Shown here: positions 10,866 through 46,320 of the stretch, one piece after another
How positions within the stretch are numbered: position 1 is the stretch's first letter
How the letters are laid out: each line of letters starts with the position of its first letter
NCBI GenBank assembly: GCA_022509025.1
Contig: JAFLUB010000020.1
Coordinates: 1 to 48,684 of the forward strand
Direction: 5' to 3'
Source: Oscillospiraceae bacterium
GTDB lineage: Bacteria > Bacillota > Clostridia > UBA1381
Length of the DNA stretch: 48,684 nt
Translations under genes and position numbers: made by a program
The notes under the pieces: generated by a model
Seen by the model: the letters and a program-made list of their open reading frames with translations, nothing else
Told to the model about the DNA's origin: nothing
Databases searched by the model: none

Positions 10866-11038
10866 GGTAATCTCCATAGCCTTTCTGCCCACAAGTCATA
10901 TCAAATTTTAACACACCTATCGTGGGCAGATAAGGTGTTAAATGGAGATTATGCCCATGTGCGATTTTTGAGCTTGCGAGAAAATACTCGCACGGGCAAT
11001 CAAATCATATAACGTGATTTATCACGTTATATCTCCTT
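10866..11038 (-). promoter_or_regulatory. repeated structured leader element, copy 1 (before queC)
   Basis: This fills the queF-queC gap exactly. In the transcript sense it contains a Shine-Dalgarno plus a 6-codon GTG frame (11,025-11,005), a TTGCCCGTGC / GCACATGGGCA stem, and a TGCGAG / CTCGCA hairpin. Next come the blocks TTTAACAC / GTGTTAAA and TGCCCAC (10,928-10,922) / GTGGGCA (10,892-10,886). Finally AATCTCCAT (10,950-10,942) pairs with ATGGAGATT (10,877-10,869), which covers the queC ribosome-binding site. The ilvD copy is nearly identical in block order and sequence. It does not match the preQ1 riboswitch classes I know. Confidence 0.75.
11005..11025 (-). CDS. six-codon upstream reading frame in the queC leader
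   Basis: GTG ATA AAT CAC GTT ATA followed by TGA, preceded by AAGGAG at 7 nt. The Shine-Dalgarno overlaps the last codons of queF. The ilvD leader has an equivalent frame (VINHVN against VINHVI) with an equally good ribosome-binding site. The sequence is also a palindrome (CGTGATAAATCACG), so it may instead be a hairpin. Translation is not shown. Confidence 0.35.
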   Translation of the reverse strand: MINHVI

Positions 11039-20474: not shown

Positions 20475-21125
20475 ATGAGTATTATCTTGGATATCATTCT
20501 TGCGGGACTGATTATAATCGCATTTATAGTCGGGTATCGCAAAGGATTTATAAAATCAGTGTGGAAGATAGCAGCGCTTGTTATTACGATTATTCTCGTG
20601 ATGATACTTAAAAATCCGACCGCTGAGTTTCTTTCAGGGACTTCTTTTGCAGATACGCTGCATACAAAAATATCCGAATCTGTTTCTGTCCCGTACGGAG
20701 GCGGAGTGAATATAACAGATGCTTTAAATCTTCCTGAATTTCTGAAGCCTCAGGTAAGCAGCGGTATAGAAAGCGCCGGGAACGTTGTAACCTCGGTAAA
20801 CGAGACTACCGCAAATATGCTCACGTCTGTTTTCATAAAGATTATAGCGGGCGCGGGATTGTTTATAGCAATACGTCTTATCCTGATGGCGGCATATATG
20901 ATAATAAACGGAGCCTCAAAACTGCCGGTGATAAAGGGAGTAAATAAAACGGCAGGCGGATTATTGGGCGTAATTAATATAGTGTTTATCGTTTTTCTTC
21001 TGCTCTCGCTTGTGTCTCTTTTTGCAAGCGCGGACAGCGGTTTGTTTGAAATGATAAACAGCACTTACGTTGTTAAATATTTATATAACTATAATATATT
21101 ACTTCAAATATTTATGAAGATTTAA
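20475..21125 (+). CDS. CvpA family membrane protein
   Basis: The 216-aa product begins SIILDIILAGLIIIAFIVGYRKGF, shown here in pieces SIILDIILAG and FIVGYRKGFIKSVW, the CvpA hallmark. It has about four transmembrane helices with an extracytoplasmic stretch between helices 2 and 3. CvpA proteins are linked to colicin V production and envelope integrity; the exact function is unknown. The start at 20,475 (GGGGGT upstream) is preferred. A start at 20,367 would translate an unrelated repeat. Confidence 0.85.
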   Translation: MSIILDIILAGLIIIAFIVGYRKGFIKSVWKIAALVITIILVMILKNPTAEFLSGTSFADTLHTKISESVSVPYGGGVNITDALNLPEFLKPQVSSGIESAGNVVTSVNETTANMLTSVFIKIIAGAGLFIAIRLILMAAYMIINGASKLPVIKGVNKTAGGLLGVINIVFIVFLLLSLVSLFASADSGLFEMINSTYVVKYLYNYNILLQIFMKI

Positions 21126-21303
21126 GGGAGGATTACCGTGATAAATCACGTTAATTAGATTTAATTGCCCGTGCGGGTTTTTTCTCGCAAGCTTCGAAAA
21201 AAGCACATGGGCATAATCACCACTTAACGCCTTATCTGCCCACGATAAACGCGTTAGTGATTTAAATTATTAATTGTGGGCAGAAAGGCTATGGTGATTA
21301 ATA
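21126..21303 (+). promoter_or_regulatory. repeated structured leader element, copy 2 (before ilvD)
   Basis: Fullest copy. GGGAGG (21,126-21,131) and a GTG six-codon frame come first. TTGCCCGTGC pairs with GCACATGGGCA, with an inner TGCGGG / CTCGCA hairpin using one G-U pair. TTAACGC (21,224-21,230) pairs with GCGTTA (21,251-21,256), and TGCCCAC (21,237-21,243) pairs with GTGGGCA (21,276-21,282). AATCACCA (21,215-21,222) pairs with TGGTGATT (21,292-21,299), five nt before the ATG. It is not a T-box: no conserved T-box sequence is visible. Confidence 0.75.
21138..21158 (+). CDS. six-codon upstream reading frame in the ilvD leader
   Basis: GTG ATA AAT CAC GTT AAT followed by TAG, with GGGAGG 6 nt upstream. 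Its twin before queC keeps start, length and Shine-Dalgarno although the last codons and the stop differ. Whether it is translated or only a palindrome is open. Confidence 0.35.
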   Translation: MINHVN

Positions 21304-22968
21304 ATGTACAGTGACGTAGTAAAAAAAGGTCTGGAAAAGACACCGCACCGCTCGCTTTTCAAAGCGTCGGGATTTACGGATGAGGAATTAAACCGTCCGT
21401 TAATAGGCGTTGTCAGCGCTAAAAACGAGGTTATCCCGGGACACATTCACCTGGATAAGATTGCGGAGGCTGTTAAAACAGGCGTAAGAGTAGCAGGCGG
21501 AACACCGATTGAGTTCCCTGCAATAGGCGTATGCGACGGTATCGCAATGGGACACAAGGGTATGAAATACTCGCTTGCATCACGTGAGCTTATCGCGGAT
21601 TCCATAGAATCAATGTCTATCGCGCATGGTTTTGACGCGCTCGTGCTTATCCCGAACTGTGACAAGATTGTGCCGGGAATGCTTATCGCGGCGGCAAGAC
21701 TGAATATTCCGTCAATCGTTGTCAGCGGCGGACCTATGCTTTCCATGAACTACAACGGCAAGTTCCGTGACCTCAATACAGCGTTTGAGGCAGTCGGCGC
21801 GTTCAAGGCGGGAACAATCGATGAAAAAGAGCTTTTAAATCTTGAAGAGGCGGCTTGTCCGTCATGCGGTTCATGCTCAGGTATGTTCACGGCAAATTCC
21901 ATGAACTGTCTCTCGGAGGTACTTGGTATGGCTCTGCCCGGAAACGGTACAATACCGGCTGTTTATTCAGAGAGAATAAGACTTGCTAAGCACGCGGGCA
22001 TGAAGATTATGGAGCTTCTCGAAAAGGATATTAAGCCGAGAGATATTATAACACCCGATTCGATATATAACGCACTACGCGTAGATATGGCTCTGGGCTG
22101 CAGCACAAACTCAATGCTGCATCTTCCGGCGATAGCTTACGAGGCAAAGGCTCCTATCACGCTTGATTACGCAAACGATATAAGTAAGGAAACACCGAAC
22201 CTGTGCCATCTTGCTCCTGCCGGCGACCACCATGTTCAGGATTTATACGCGGCGGGCGGCGTTCAGGCGCTTATGAACGAGCTTTCAAAGAAGAACCTCT
22301 TAAAGCTTGACACAATAACCGCTACGGGCAAGACTCTCGGTGAAAATATAAAGGACTGCCCTGTTCTTGACTATGAGGTAATCCGTCCTATTGATAACCC
22401 GTACAGTGAAACGGGCGGTATCGCAGTTTTAAAGGGTAATCTCGCTCCTGACGGTTCGGTTGTTAAGAGAAGCGCGGTGGCAAAGGAAATGCTTCAGCAT
22501 GAAGGTCCCGCAAAGGTATATAACAGCGAAGAGGAAGCTATCGCGGCTATTTACGCCGGTGAGATTGTAAAGGGCGACGTTGTTGTTATCCGTTACGAAG
22601 GACCTAAGGGCGGACCGGGTATGCGTGAGATGCTTTCGCCTACCTCTGCTATCTGCGGAATGGGACTTGATAAGGATGTCGCGCTTATCACTGACGGACG
22701 TTTCAGCGGCGCGACCCGCGGCGCGGCAATAGGACATGTTTCTCCTGAAGCTGCCGAGGGCGGACCAATCGCGCTTGTTGAGAACGGTGATATTATTTCA
22801 ATAGATATTGATAATTGTCAGATTAACCTCAACATATCAGACGATGAAATAAATAGGCGCAGAGAAAATCTGAAACCGGTTGAGCCTAAGATTAAGACAG
22901 GATATCTCAGGAGATATTCAAAAATGGTTTCTTCCGCAATTCAGGGCGCGGTTATGATTGATGATTAA
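21304..22968 (+). CDS. ilvD: dihydroxy-acid dehydratase
   Basis: The 554-aa product has full IlvD length and motifs: iron-sulfur ligand regions [11 protein letters not shown] and [19 protein letters not shown], and the C-terminal [20 protein letters not shown] and [10 protein letters not shown]. It dehydrates dihydroxyisovalerate and dihydroxymethylvalerate for valine, isoleucine and leucine. It stands alone without ilvBCN or leu genes. Its start codon follows the repeated leader, whose GGTGAT must serve as the ribosome-binding site, so translation may be conditional. Confidence 0.97.
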
Positions 22969-25527: not shown

Positions 25528-28500
25528 TTATTCAGCTTCTTCAACCTCTTCACCGTCAACAGTGATGTTAATATCCTTATATATACTCATACCTGTACCT
25601 GCAGGGATAAGCTTACCGATAATAACATTCTCTTTAAGACCAAGAAGCGGGTCAACCTTACCTTTAATAGCAGCTTCCGTAAGAACCTTTGTTGTTTCCT
25701 GGAATGACGCCGCTGAAAGGAATGAATCTGTCGCAAGAGAAGCCTTTGTGATACCAAGAAGCACAGGTGACGCGGTAGCAAACTCTGTTCCGCCCGCTTC
25801 CTTAACTCTCTCATTAGCCTCTTCAAGCTCAAACTTATCAACGAGCGAGCCTATAAGCAAATCTGTCTGGCCTGCTTCCTCAACTCTTACCTTTCTGAGC
25901 ATCTGACGCGTGATAACCTCGACGTGCTTATCGTTGATATCCACGCCCTGCATACGGTAGGTTCTCTGAACCTCACGCGAGATATATACCTGTACAGCGT
26001 GAGGACCCTTGATATGCAGAATATCGTTCGGGTTAACGCTACCTACAGTAATCTCGTCACCGGCTTCAATAACATCGCCGTCGTGTACCTTTATGCTTGA
26101 ACCATACGGAATAGTATACGTTTTTGCCTCGCCTGTTTCATCGTTCTGAACAATAACCTCTCTCTTGCGCTTCGATTCACTTATTGTGATTCTTCCGCCG
26201 ATTTCAGAGATTATAGCAAGACCCTTAGGCTTTCTCGCTTCAAACAACTCCTCGACACGGGGAAGACCCTGTGTGATATCGCTGCCCGAAGCAACGCCGC
26301 CCGCGTGGAAGGTACGCATTGTAAGCTGTGTACCCGGTTCACCGATTGACTGCGCGGCTATGATACCTACAGCCTCGCCGACATTTACAAGGTCGCCTGT
26401 TGCAAGGTTTGTTCCGTAACACTTAGCGCATACGCCAATCTTTGATTTACATGTGAGTACGCTTCTTATATAAACCTTCTCAATTCCTGCTTTTATAATA
26501 GCCGTTGCCTGGTCGTCGGTTATAAGCTCGCCGCCCTTTGCAAGCACAGCGCCTGTTTCAGGATGAATAACATCCTCCATAGCCGTACGGCCTACTATAC
26601 GGTCGTGAAGCGGCTCGATACTTTCTTTACCGTCAGTGATTTCCGTTACCCATTCGCCCTCTTCGGTTCCGCAGTCAACCTCGCGGACGATAACGTTCTG
26701 TGAAACGTCAACAAGACGACGTGTAAGATAACCCGAGTCAGCCGTACGAAGCGCCGTATCTGTAAGACCCTTACGCGCGCCGTGAGATGAAATGAAGTAC
26801 TCAAGTACGTTAAGACCTTCTCGGAAGTTAGCACGGATAGGAATTTCGACTGTACGTCCCTGAGTATCCGCCATAAGTCCGCGCATTGCGGCAAGCTGAC
26901 GAATCTGGTTAACGCTACCACGGGCTCCCGAGTCAGCCATCATGAATATCGGATTGAACTCGCCGAGGTTTTCCATCATGGCATTAGATACATCGCCGGA
27001 AGCCTTTGACCACAGCTTGATTGTCTGCTGGTATCTTTCCTCGTTTGTCAGGAAACCTGACTGATACATCTGCATGATTTCTTCGATACCCTTTTCTGTT
27101 TCTTCAAGGATATCCTTCTTCTGTGCCGGAACCTCGATATCCGACACGGCAACAGTGATAGCGCCCTTTGTTGAGTACTTATAACCTGTAGCCTTAATCT
27201 TGTCAAGCACCTCGGCTGTTTCAGAAGTACCGCATACTCTGATACACTTATCAATAATCTTTTCAAGCGCTTTTTTATCAACGATAAAGTCAATTTCCAG
27301 ATCAAATGCATTTTCAGGATTTGACCTGTCAACAAATCCGATGTTCTGCGGAATGTTATTATTGAAGATAATTCTTCCGACAGTTGTTTCAATCATCTTT
27401 GACTTTTGCTTACCGTCTACTGTGACGTTAACCTCAACGAGTATTTTCTCGTGCAGCGTTGCGCCGCCGTTATCGTAAGCAAGAAGCGCCTCGTCAAATG
27501 AAGTATATCTCTTTATAACAAGCTTCTTTATTTCATCTATAAGCTTCTTTAATGAAATCTCAACCGAACCCTCCGACAAGACAATAGTTATCGGATTGGC
27601 ATGAATCTCTGTTTCGTTCTTCATTACCTCCGGAAGCTCTTTCATGAAAGTAAGCGCATCCTCTATCTTAGTAAAGCTCTTTATCGGCTCATTTTCTTTA
27701 TAGAGAACAAGATTTTCCTCTTTCTCCATAGCGAGAAGATTATTCTTTAACAATTCAAGCTTTGCTTCATTATCAAGAATAGAGTCTATAATCCAATCGT
27801 AATGCTCCTTTGTGATGGTCAGATAATAAGAACCTAATATCATATCCTGTGTAGGAACAGTTACAGGATGTCCATCCTGCGGCTTTAAAAGGTTGTTCGC
27901 ACTGAGCATCAAAAATCTTGCCTCAGCCTGAGCCTCAGGTGACAACGGCACATGGATAGCCATCTGGTCACCGTCGAAGTCAGCGTTATACGCAGTACAA
28001 ACAAGCGGGTGCAGTTTCAGAGCATGACCTTCAACAAGACGCGGCTCAAAAGCCTGAATACCGAGTCTGTGAAGCGTAGGCGCACGGTTCAGAAGAACAG
28101 GATGCTCTTTGATAACGTCCTCAAGAACGTCCCAGACCTCCGGCTTTGTTCTTTCAACCATTCTCTTTGCGCTCTTTATATTATGCGCGAGTCCGCGCGC
28201 AACAAGCTCCTTCATTACGAACGGCTTAAACAGCTCAATAGCCATTTCCTTCGGGAGTCCGCACTGATATATCTTCATCTCAGGACCTACGACGATAACC
28301 GAACGTCCTGAGTAGTCAACACGCTTACCGAGAAGGTTCTGACGGAAACGACCCTGCTTACCCTTAAGCATATCTGAAAGGGATTTAAGAGGTCTGTTAC
28401 CCGGACCTGTTACCGTTCTGCCGCGTCTGCCGTTATTTATAAGCGCGTCCACAGCTTCCTGGAGCATACGTTTTTCGTTTCTGATAATGATATCAGGCGC

Positions 28501-29325
28501 GCCCAATTCAAGAAGTCTCTTTAAACGGTTGTTTCTGTTTATAACACGTCTGTAAAGGTCGTTAAGATCCGAAGTTGCAAAACGTCCGCCGTCGAGCTGA
28601 ACCATAGGTCTAAGCTCCGGAGGAATAACAGGGATAACCGTCATAATCATCCACTCGGGACGGTTGCCGGAAATTCTGAACGCCTCAACTATTTCAAGTC
28701 TTTTTATAATTCTTGATTTTTTCTGACCCTGTGACGCTTCAAGCTCTTCCTTCAGTTCTTCGGAAAGCTTTTCAAGATCAATACCTTCAAGAAGGGATTT
28801 AATCGCTTCCGCGCCCATACCCGCCTTGAATTTATCACCGTACTTTTCATACGCCTCGCGGTATTCCGCCTCTGTCAGAATCTGATTCTGCATAAGTCCC
28901 GTACCGCCCGGATCGGTTACGATATATGCCGCAAAGTACAGTACCTTTTCCAGCTGACGCGGTGAAAGGTCTATAATAAGTCCCATTGATGAAGGAACGC
29001 CCTTGAAGTACCATATATGCGAAACAGGCGTTGCCAGTTCGATATGACCCATTCTTTCACGTCTTACCTTCGCTTTGGTTACTTCAACTCCGCAGCGTTC
29101 ACAGATTTTTCCCTTAAATCTTATTTTCTTGTACTTACCGCAGTGACATTCCCAGTCCTTTGTCGGACCGAAAATCTTTTCGCAGAACAATCCGTCCTTT
29201 TCAGGCTTCAGCGTGCGGTAGTTTATGGTTTCCGGCTTCAGGACTTCACCGTGTGACCAACTCAATATTGTCTCGGGAGAAGCTAAGCCTATTTTAATTG
29301 CTTCAAAGCTGTTAAATTCTAACAT
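25528..29325 (-). CDS. rpoC: RNA polymerase beta' subunit
   Basis: The 1265-aa product has the N-terminal zinc ribbon [20 protein letters not shown], catalytic triad [14 protein letters not shown], the [20 protein letters not shown] trigger-loop region, the second zinc site [13 protein letters not shown] and the C-terminal [20 protein letters not shown]. It is slightly longer than B. subtilis beta'. It lies 44 nt after rpoB with GGAGG before the ATG, and ends at a strong terminator. It closes the active centre of RNA polymerase with rpoB. Confidence 0.98.
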
Positions 29326-29369: not shown

Positions 29370-32300
29370 TTAGAAATCATCATCGTCGAAATCATCGTCA
29401 TAGTCGTCAATTTCTTCATCGGCGATGTCACTGTCGAAATCATCGTCGTCAAAATCTCCGTCTAAAACCATACTTGCATCGTCGAGGTCATCCTCTTCAA
29501 GCGTATCGGAAATTCCGTCCTTATCCTCCATCGCCTGCATCAGATCTTCGCTGACAACGACATCATCATCGTCTTCAAATGAAGCGTCAATATCAATCTC
29601 TTCCATATTGTGGTTAAGAATACGAATATCAAGCGCAAGCGACTGCAATTCCTTAACCATAACCTTAAATGATTCCGGAACTCCTGACTTAGGAATATTC
29701 TCTCCCTTTACGATTGCCTCATATGTCTTTACACGACCCACAATATCGTCTGATTTAACTGTCAATATCTCCTGCAGAGTATAAGCCGCGCCGTAAGCCT
29801 CAAGAGCCCAAACCTCCATCTCACCGAAACGCTGTCCGCCAAACTGAGCCTTACCGCCCAGAGGCTGCTGAGTAACCAGTGAATACGGACCTGTTGAACG
29901 CGCGTGTATCTTATCGTCAACAAGGTGGTGCAGCTTCAGGTAGTACATGACTCCGACCGTAACAGGGTTATCAAACTTCTCACCCGTGCGTCCGTCATAT
30001 ACAACCGATTTGAAGTCAGGTCTCAGACCCGCTTCCTTGAACGCAAGCTTCAGATCCTCGTCCTGCGCACCGTCGAATACAGGAGTTGCAAGCTTAATGA
30101 ATCTGCCTTCTCTTGCATTGTCTTTAGCATGAAGTATATTTTCTCTGAAGTTATCATCTATTATTGTATTTTCAAGCTCCTGTCTTGTTTTAAGACTTAA
30201 GCATCTGTAAGCGTAGCCTAAGTGCATTTCAAGCACCTGTCCGATATTCATACGTGAAGGCACGCCCAGAGGGTTAAGCACTATCTGCAGCGGTGTACCG
30301 TCCTCCAGGAACGGCATATCCTCCTGCGGAAGCACACGGGATACGACACCCTTGTTACCGTGACGTCCCGCCATCTTATCGCCGACAGATATCTTTCTCT
30401 TCTGAGCGATGATGCAGCGTACAACCTCATTCACGCCCGGTGAAAGCTCGTCGCCGTTTTCACGCGTAAACTTATGAACATCTATAATTATACCCTGTTC
30501 TCCGTGAGGAACGCGAAGTGAAGTATCTCTTACCTCTCTCGCCTTCTCACCGAAGATTGCGCGGAGAAGTCTTTCCTCTGCGGTAAGCTCTGTTTCACCC
30601 TTTGGCGTTACCTTACCAACAAGGATATCTCCGGCGTGAACCTCTGCGCCGACTCTGATGATACCTTGTTCATCAAGGTCCTTCAGAGCGTCCTCGGATA
30701 CATTCGGGATATCTCTTGTTATTTCCTCGGGACCAAGCTTTGTATCACGCGCTTCGCATTCATATTCCTCCATATGGATTGATGTGAACACATCGTTCTT
30801 AACAAGCTCCTCGCTTATCAAAACAGCGTCCTCGTAGTTATATCCTTCCCAGGTCATGAAGCCTATGAGGATATTTTTACCGAGAGCCAACTCACCGTTA
30901 TCCATTGCCGGACCGTCCGCGATTACGTCGTTTCTCTTTACTCTTTCGCCCTTAACTACTATAGGTCTCTGGTTTATACAGCAGCTCTGGTTTGAACGGG
31001 CGAATTTTATAAGCTTATGATTATGCTTTATGCCGCTGTCGCCTTTTATTACTATTAAATCGGAAGAAACCTTTTCAACTACGCCGTCTTCCTTTGCAAG
31101 AACGGCGCTTCCGCTGTCTTTAGCAATCTTATGCTCAATACCTGTTCCGACAATCGGTGAATCGGTTGTAAGAAGCGGCACTGCCTGACACTGCATGTTT
31201 GAACCCATCAGCGCTCTGTTAGCGTCATCGTTTTCAAGGAACGGGATACAAGCCGTAACAACCGATACAAGCTGTCTCGGTGATACGTCCATGTAATCAA
31301 TTCTATCAGCCGGCACTTCCAATATTTCATCACGGAAACGCGCGCTGACCTTTTTATCGAGGAAATGCCCGTCCTCGTCAAGAGGCTCGTTCGCCTGAGC
31401 GACGATATATTCATCCTCTGTATCGGCTGTCATGTAAACTATCTCATCGGTTACACAGCCTGTTTCCTTATCAACCTTTCTGTACGGAGCTTCAATGAAT
31501 CCGTACTGGTCAATTCTCGCGAATGTAGCAAGTGATGTGATAAGACCGATGTTAGGACCTTCCGGCGTCTCTATCGGACACATTCTTCCATAGTGCGAAT
31601 AGTGAACGTCACGCACTTCGAATCCGGCTCTTTCTCTTGAAAGACCGCCCGGACCCAATGCTGAAATTCTTCTCTTGTGACGAACCTCGGCAAGCGGGTT
31701 CGGCTGGTCCATGAACTGCGAAAGCTGTGATGAACCGAAGAATTCATTTATAGTAGCTATTATAGGTCTTATATTAATAAGCGATGTAGGTGTTATTATT
31801 TCAAGCTCCTGCGTAGACATTCTTTCTCTAACGGTTCTTTCCATACGTGAAAGACCGATTCTGAACTGGTTCTGCAAAAGCTCACCCACGCAGCGAACAC
31901 GTCTGTTTCCGAGATGGTCGATATCGTCAATAGTACCAAGACCGTTTGCAAGGTTCATGCAGTAGTTTACAGACGCGAACATATCATCTATAATAATATG
32001 CTTCGGAGCAAGCTCATCAACTCTTGCCCAGATTTGTTCACGAAGCTCTTCTTCCGTTTCAGCAGTCTTAACGATTTCTTCAATAACAGATTTTCTTACA
32101 GTCGGAACCGGGAAGTTCTCAATCTCAAAATCTATATACTCGCTAAGGTGTACCATATTATTAGAAAAAACTCTGACCTTCTTACCTTCTATAAGAAGCT
32201 CCACCTTATTGATTCCCGCTTTTTCAATCTGCATTGCGAGTTCTGCGCTCAATGCTGCGCCCTCTTCGGCAATAATCTCGCCCGTTCTCGGGTCAACAGC

Positions 32301-33176
32301 AGCCTCGGCAAGAGTCTTACCCTTTATTCTTGAAGAAAGAGCCATTTTTTTATTGAACTTATATCTTCCGACCTTCGCCAAGTCATAACGCTTAGGATCG
32401 AAGAACATATTCATGATAAGAGACTCGGCGTTTTCCACGTTAAGCGGTTCGCCAGGACGAAGTCTTTTATAGATTTCAAGAAGTCCCTCGTCTCTTGACT
32501 CTGTTGTATCCTTTTCAAATGTTGCAAGAAGCTTTGTATCTTCACCGAACATATCAAGTATTTCCGCGTTTGTGCCGAGACCCATGGCTCTTAAAAGCAC
32601 CGTTACGGGTAACTTTCTTGTTCTGTCTATTCTTACTGAGAACACATCGTTTGAATCTGTTTCGTATTCAAGCCACGCGCCTCTGTAAGGAATAATTGTA
32701 GCTTTGTAGAGCGGCTTACCTGTCTTGTCGCGCTCAAATTCATAGTACATACCCGGAGATCTCGTGAGCTGGCTGACAATAACACGCTCCGCTCCGTTGA
32801 TTATAAATGTTCCCTGCTCTGTCATCAGCGGGAAGTCACCCATAAAAATTTCCTGTTCCTTGATTTCACCTGTTTCGGTATTGATAAGTCTTACGCTTAC
32901 CTTTAAGGGAGCCGCGTATTTCGCATCTCTTTCCTTACATTCCTCAACGGTGTACTTCGAGTTGTACTCAAGGCGGTAATCAAAAAATTCCAGAACGAGC
33001 TTTCCCGCATGGTCTGTGACCGGGGAAATATCATGGAATATTTCCTTGAGTCCCTCTTCCAGGAACCATTTGTAGGAATTTTTCTGTACCTCTATAAGGT
33101 TGGGCATTTCCAGAACCTCTTTGATTTTGGAATAGCTCAGACGTACATTTTTTCCTGCTTCTACTTCATGCACCAT
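29370..33176 (-). CDS. rpoB: RNA polymerase beta subunit
   Basis: The 1268-aa product has classic RpoB segments: the rifampicin-pocket region [19 protein letters not shown] then [26 protein letters not shown], and the C-terminal [20 protein letters not shown]. An Asp/Glu-rich tail (about the last 80 residues) ends in DDDDF repeats, a feature of some clostridial RpoB proteins. GAGGTGA precedes the start. The usual upstream rplKAJL cluster is absent: the neighbour is a divergent dnaD gene, so rpoBC has its own promoter here. Confidence 0.98.
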
Positions 33177-46234: not shown

Positions 46235-46320
46235 ATTAATATCCATAGCCTTTCTACCCACAAATTTTGATGAGAATTTTTAACGCTCCAATCGTGGGCA
46301 AATAAGGCGTTAAATTCTCC
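46235..46320 (-). promoter_or_regulatory. repeated structured leader element, short copy 3 (before dnaN)
   Basis: Only the start-proximal half is present. GAGAATTTAACGC (46,319-46,307) pairs with GCGTTA-AA-AATTCTC (46,286-46,272). TGCCCAC (46,300-46,294) pairs with GTGGGTA (46,261-46,255), where the C-to-T change keeps a G-U pair. The invariant blocks GCCTTAT, CCCACGAT and AGAAAGGCTATGG match the queC and ilvD copies. The upstream reading frame and first stem are missing. Confidence 0.7.

Follow-up and report, generated by a model that had tools for sequence, protein, structure and literature searches.

The structured leaders that precede ilvD, queC and dnaN in the window, the 48,684-nucleotide stretch of Oscillospiraceae DNA analysed here, are members of a repeat family far larger than was first noted. 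It is very probable that this family is a mobile-like, structured ribosome-binding element that has been inserted into the gap between the native Shine-Dalgarno (SD) sequence and the start codon and that supplies a new SD. The element would be a non-coding repeat of ~150-170 nt at full length, lying in sense orientation between native SD and start codon. Its 3' end would bring an SD-like AGAAAGG, set between an H-type pseudoknot and an outer stem (P1), and the gene would then be translated from the ribosome-binding site of the element.

Re-reading of the sequence confirmed the coordinates and the block order originally given for the three copies in the window. The CTATGG block, for which a spacing of 7-10 nt to the start had been noted, stands 8-9 nt from it in all three. 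From 5' to 3', the parts are the native SD, a 5' hairpin, a middle stem-loop, the 5' strand of P1, stem S1 with its loop TGCCCAC, an A/T-rich loop, the S2 3' strand GTGGGCA, AGAAAGG, the 3' strand of P1 and the start codon (Table 1). Over the whole element, the ilvD and queC copies are identical at 143 of 165 positions in a pairwise alignment (score 104; best of 300 shuffles, 7). The extended upstream likeness of these two copies, also part of the original prediction, amounts to 72 of 79 identical positions in the part 5' of P1, and the 120-nt flanks do not align on either side (scores -11.5 and 4). The dnaN copy indeed consists of the start-proximal part only. The native SD of ilvD now lies ~170 nt away from its start codon. 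Elsewhere in the window, two very long ORFs of 1265 and 1268 aa adjoin each other on the minus strand (25528-29325 and 29370-33176).

Table 1. Positions of the element parts and neighbouring signals at the three loci of the window.
Feature	Position	Strand	Basis or remark
Native SD GGGAGG of ilvD	21126..21131	+	directly 3' of the stop codon of the upstream gene
5' hairpin, ilvD copy	21131..21156	+	predicted fold; 5' boundary approximate
Middle stem-loop TGCCCGTG..CATGGGCA, ilvD copy	21166..21213	+	predicted fold and comparison of relatives
P1 5' strand, ilvD copy	21214..21222	+	covariation and predicted fold
S1 hairpin (TTAACGCCTTATC / GATAA..GCGTTA), ilvD copy	21224..21256	+	covariation
S1 loop TGCCCAC (= S2 5' strand), ilvD copy	21237-21243	+	covariation
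A/T-rich pseudoknot loop L3, ilvD copy	21257..21275	+	sequence
S2 3' strand GTGGGCA (pseudoknot), ilvD copy	21276..21282	+	covariation
Element-borne SD-like AGAAAGG, ilvD copy	21282..21288	+	complement of 16S rRNA tail CCTTTCT
P1 3' strand (TGGTGATTA), ilvD copy	21292..21300	+	covariation and fold; between AGAAAGG and ATG 21304
ilvD (dihydroxy-acid dehydratase)	21304..22968	+	ORF and NCBIfam
Native SD AAGGAG of queC	11033..11038	-	sequence and congeners; within 3' end of upstream gene
5' hairpin, queC copy	11007..11032	-	sequence and predicted fold
Middle stem-loop, queC copy	10952..10999	-	sequence and predicted fold; limits approximate
Core, queC copy	10869..10950	-	sequence, covariance model and fold
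P1 5' strand, queC copy	10950-10942	-	
S1 loop, queC copy	10928-10922	-	
S2 3' strand, queC copy	10892-10886	-	
AGAAAGG, queC copy	10886-10880	-	
P1 3' strand, queC copy	10877-10869	-	
Start codon of queC	10865	-	
Native SD GGAG of dnaN	46317..46320	-	sequence and congeners
Core-only dnaN copy	46238..46313	-	sequence, covariance model and fold
S1 loop TGCCCAC, dnaN copy	46300-46294	-	
S2 3' strand GTGGGTA, dnaN copy	46261-46255	-	
AGAAAGG, dnaN copy	46255-46249	-	
Start codon of dnaN	46234	-	

As originally proposed, a covariance model was used to search the source genome and its relatives; pattern and model searches revealed a repeat family located mostly at start codons. The pattern TGCCCACGATN{8,40}GTGGGYAGAAAGG occurs at 31 places in the source genome (a 2.49-Mb draft) and its reversed control at none; this count, together with the ilvD/queC score against shuffles, rules out chance similarity. 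The covariance model R1 was made from 47 of 55 pattern-selected sequences (L021, L039, L040, L041, L043, L045, L047 and L048 were dropped) and returned 88 rows at E<=0.1, of which three echo sense copies on the opposite strand, for a total of ~80 places. The set of 81 places used below comprises the 88 rows minus the three antisense and five weak ones (E 0.002-0.011), plus one place found separately. Full-length copies in the source genome measure 149-168 nt, show a mean pairwise identity of 84% with a maximum of 96% (37 copies), and carry no conserved long ORF.

The family is widespread and uneven in copy number. R1 matched at E<=0.01 in 46 of 61 genomes (the source and 60 relatives), with at least 67 matches in the source genome and 0-8 in each of its 15 congeners; four genomes of the same family (G019, G020, G017 and G034) have 28, 21, 13 and 12, and the remaining family members 0-5. 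In a draw from the class, to which stricter filters were applied, 44 of 391 genomes matched at E<=1e-4, and several families were represented. A slightly narrower pattern was found in 25 stretches of public genome records, some records sharing one genome; most are titled as MAGs of Clostridia or Ruminococcus, and several come from animal guts. That the element travels mainly as phage or plasmid cargo was rejected: one exact pattern hit 0 viral-contig stretches, and the ilvD copy had no match at E 0.01 in phage and plasmid collections. Core-type copies L036 and L048 lie ahead of genes that look phage-like by eye. Near-identical copies stand before the same gene in two genera (L207:501-597 in G020 and L218:501-597 in G012), and this gene looks by eye like a serine recombinase, which suggests carriage on a shared integrative element. 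At L003 and L024, the element is immediately preceded by a similar G+C-rich inverted repeat (CCCGACCCGCC..GGGCGGGT), ~100-150 nt from the core on its 5' side, which is apparently another repeat family adjoining it.

Placement was assessed by asking whether the start codon of an ORF of at least 80 codons lies 8-20 nt downstream of the SD-like block. This was the case at 73 of the 81 places (65 with ATG alone), compared with 8.4% of 20,000 random positions (4.8% with ATG alone), and eight places failed; copies thus do not lie mostly away from start codons, an outcome that had been named as speaking against the original prediction. Sites in the window outside the element passed in 0 of 5 cases for AGAAAGG and in 2 of 15 for GAAAGG. 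One identical distance from SD-like block to start is common to 46 of the 73 passing places, and the 3' block TATGGNNATT, present in 67 copies, ends 3 nt 5' of the start codon in 44 of them, 14 of the 81 places being left out for want of an exact block. Two source-genome copies (L133 and L135) have no long ORF behind them and are possibly solitary insertions or decayed genes. Three others (L145, L146 and L149) look internally deleted by eye and keep the 3' GTGGGCAGAAAGGCTATGG block; since they nevertheless stand before genes, the full pseudoknot may not always be needed.

The genes behind the element are unrelated to one another. When 50 of the 75 downstream proteins of at least 100 aa were scanned against NCBIfam, 41 matched at E<=1e-30, to unrelated families and in some cases below the curated cut-off. 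Targets above the cut-off include aspS, recN, lgt, purC, trkA, murG, uppP, asd, dnaN, dnaX, cmk, apt, ftsH, thiE, prmA, nrdG, ilvD, queC and the spore gene ytvI; argR matched just below it. The absence of a common pathway, first noted for three genes, thus extends to the 50 proteins scanned. Because only 5 of 72 targets found in other genomes are similar to a source-genome target at E<=1e-15 (five places with no ORF reaching 60 codons were dropped and near-identical proteins merged), targets mostly differ between genomes.

Comparison with congeners provided the strongest indication of insertion. The sites of ilvD, queC, dnaN and aspS were examined at 15, 13, 13 and 15 congener loci, respectively; the element is absent from all 56, each of which has an ordinary SD: GGAGG a few nt 5' of the ATG at 15 of 15 ilvD loci, and GGAG or GGAGG in the same position at 13 of 13 dnaN loci. 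At these four genes of the source genome, the element is still immediately preceded by an SD and immediately followed by the start codon. Because the congener sites are empty and the SD has been retained, the element, which sits between native SD and ATG, is best read as an insertion bringing a replacement ribosome-binding site. The junctions are approximate, as the congeners are 74-95% identical to the source in these four proteins and include no same-species pair. More generally, the 16 nt preceding the 5' hairpin contain an SD-like 4-mer in 29 of 43 source-genome copies and 20 of 29 other copies, compared with 1-7 of 43 and 1-5 of 29 in windows further upstream and 9.6% of random windows. 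At nrdG, the element is missing from 13 of 14 congener loci and present at full length in the remaining one (G014); the source-genome copy is core-only with an upstream context unlike that in G014, and we read the two as probably separate events. In another case (L205:1396-1494), the element directly follows the SD block of an older degenerate element by eye, so that it seems to have been nested into the SD-ATG gap of the latter.

The RNA structure was examined on 83 distinct sequences. The H-type pseudoknot of the original prediction (S1 and S2) is backed by compensatory changes, and the outer stem P1, which the prediction had missed, places its 3' strand between AGAAAGG and the start. Changes on both sides of a pair were seen at 8 of 8 pairs in P1, 7 of 7 and 6 of 7 in the two parts of S1, and 6 of 7 in S2; the P1 and S1 counts come from an alignment fitted to that structure, while S2 lay outside the structure used for aligning. 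None of 500 shuffles reached the observed score in any of the four helices, so that covariation goes beyond the mere sequence identity considered at the outset. S2 is paired in 94.7% of cells, with compensatory examples such as TGCCTGC/GCAGGCA (L207 and L218) and GCTCAC/GTGAGC (L214). S1 is present as predicted and is longer than drawn, TTAACGCCTTATC pairing with GATAAGG.CGTTAA around the loop TGCCCAC. An extension of the 5' hairpin stem also covaries, positions 4-6 exceeding shuffles in 39 source-genome copies, and several relatives have a middle stem-loop of different sequence. The GTG in the 5' hairpin was considered as the start of a conserved leader peptide, a reading that was rejected, as the frames vary among copies (8 codons common to 19 of 43 source-genome copies, 6 codons in 7, the rest varying) and differ in other genomes. 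A promoter within the element was likewise rejected, only one weak consensus match overlapping it.

AGAAAGG has the position and sequence by which a ribosome-binding site is recognised: it lies near the start codon and is complementary to the 16S rRNA tail CCTTTCT, with a predicted duplex of -10.1 kcal/mol. This tail (CCTCCTTTCT) is that of a congener, the source draft assembly having no exact match to the 16S pattern searched. The genes aspS, dnaN, dnaX, murG and cmk are expected to be essential, and an insertion between SD and ATG should therefore persist before them only where the element itself provides a functional site for ribosome binding, for which AGAAAGG would be the obvious candidate. 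Ribosomes probably use it, since genes such as aspS and dnaN could not be expressed if no binding site were available.

Whether the element also acts as a switch depends on its folding. The minimum-free-energy nested fold of the ilvD, queC and dnaN copies pairs (G)CCUU with AAGG(C) and thereby hides AGAAAGG (nested-fold z of -7.2, -7.2 and -2.75, respectively). The pseudoknot leaves AGAAAGG free, and two competing folds are thus predicted, of which the SD-hiding one is the more stable in the nested energy model. Pairing of the SD-hiding helix is possible in 92.6% of cells and showed no covariation in the aligned copies although both sides are constrained, as expected if the SD side cannot vary. 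We suspect that the pseudoknot may expose AGAAAGG while the alternative fold hides it. The original prediction allowed for two roles, as a global translational switch or as a mobile ribosome-binding cassette. Of these, the second is strongly supported by the empty congener sites with their ordinary SDs; the switch is permitted by the predicted SD-hiding fold and is possible, with no signal evident and no theme among the downstream proteins scanned.

Alternatively, the element could be an orphan riboswitch or protein-sensing leader whose pseudoknot core, on binding a metabolite or protein, would turn SD exposure on or off across a large regulon. The element does have a conserved, covarying 5'-UTR structure beside an expression signal, as riboswitches do; its core is highly conserved, the SD-like block lies inside the structured region, and in the two mutually exclusive predicted folds GCCUUAUC pairs with either GAUAAGG (S1) or the SD-like block. 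The preQ1-I and SAM-II translational riboswitches have an H-type pseudoknot beside the SD and possible SD masking. The element resembles them in both respects but differs in lacking a pathway theme, in the extra P1 across the SD-start interval, in its repeat-like copy number and in having no Rfam match in the stretches searched. Indeed, no family reached the Rfam 15 gathering thresholds in the window or in eight relative loci, and E-value mode on 20980-21360 gave only two microRNA families far below threshold; a known RNA family is thereby ruled out over these stretches, in line with the earlier statement that no familiar riboswitch class fits. Among other structured RNAs, the odc1 and pnuC motifs overlap or can pair with the ribosome-binding site and are treated, in the part of that report available, as control elements of particular genes and not as SD-ATG insertions (PMC8632094). 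The scanned proteins do not form a coherent gene set, copy number is far greater in the source genome than in its congeners, targets mostly differ between genomes, and the SD-hiding pairing does not covary. We therefore consider a riboswitch unlikely.

The inserted ribosome-binding element could also be MITE-like in the ordinary sense, relying on a DDE or Y1 transposase in trans for its movement, and its SD-ATG location would then be an outcome of selection only. Its length of ~160 nt, structure, lack of a conserved long ORF and uneven copy number fit such an origin, as does its being an interspersed repeat missing from orthologous sites of relatives, by which MITEs are recognised. Five Y1 transposase matches were found in the source genome, but there was none in 7 of 12 element-bearing genomes searched (G020, G034, G052, G054, G060, G088 and G120). 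Among 37 full-length copies, the longest strings common to the two flanks equalled those of shuffled pairs, giving no target-site duplication signal, although a very short duplication could escape; terminal inverted repeats were not seen by eye in the copies inspected. Moreover, insertion 5' of the native SD should be no more harmful, yet the great majority of copies lie just before a start codon. In the available part of one study, MITEs are described with inverted repeats and target duplications, and the pneumococcal repeats BOX, RUP and SPRITE are instead over-represented between convergent genes (PMC3049150). Small repeats of this kind (BOX, RUP, SPRITE, REP and MITEs) are likewise short, structured, repeated in the genome and able to affect transcripts, whereas the present family is set apart by its location at start codons and the lack of a target-duplication signal. 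A GGAG tag on REP repeats was not borne out by a literature search. Overall, an ordinary MITE is a doubtful explanation.

Retrotransposition of the element RNA by a reverse transcriptase acting in trans would account for sense-oriented copies placed by translation signals, which are visible in mRNA. RVT_1 matches are present in G054, G088 and G120 but were not found in 9 of 12 element-bearing genomes searched (the source, G014, G017, G019, G020, G034, G052, G057 and G060; drafts, some incomplete), and we regard this route as improbable. The distribution of the element follows that of neither Y1 transposases nor reverse transcriptases. A possible likeness to integron attC ends or group II intron ends was considered and set aside. 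That the element is a vertically inherited regulatory leader of the clade, lost by most congeners, agrees with matches in several families of the class and is scarcely credible in light of the ordinary SD at every congener site of the four genes and the SD still present 5' of the element in the source genome. Our leading guess for the spread of the inserted ribosome-binding element is a copying process that would be anchored at SD and ATG, short sequences common to most gene starts.

Portable repeats and translational pseudoknots are already known, and mobile promoters and other transferred non-coding regulatory DNA place a portable regulatory segment before unrelated genes. The element differs from mobile promoters in that its unit would be an RNA-level ribosome-binding site with a covarying pseudoknot, located between native SD and ATG. 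A literature search of partial coverage returned no account of any repeat that enters the gap between SD and start codon and brings a replacement structured ribosome-binding site. We tentatively raise the possibility of a new class of mobile element, one that targets translation initiation regions by recognising, or recombining at, the SD-AUG interval. Even essential genes would tolerate such an element because it brings a structured ribosome-binding site with it, and by placing the same bistable translational control ahead of dozens of unrelated genes it might create a new regulon in one lineage. The gap between SD and start is expected to be among the places least tolerant of insertion, which raises the question of how a process at the DNA level finds a translation signal. 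If the reading is true, it would offer a natural portable ribosome-binding site and would mean that ribosome-binding sites themselves can be mobile parts, even before genes expected to be essential.
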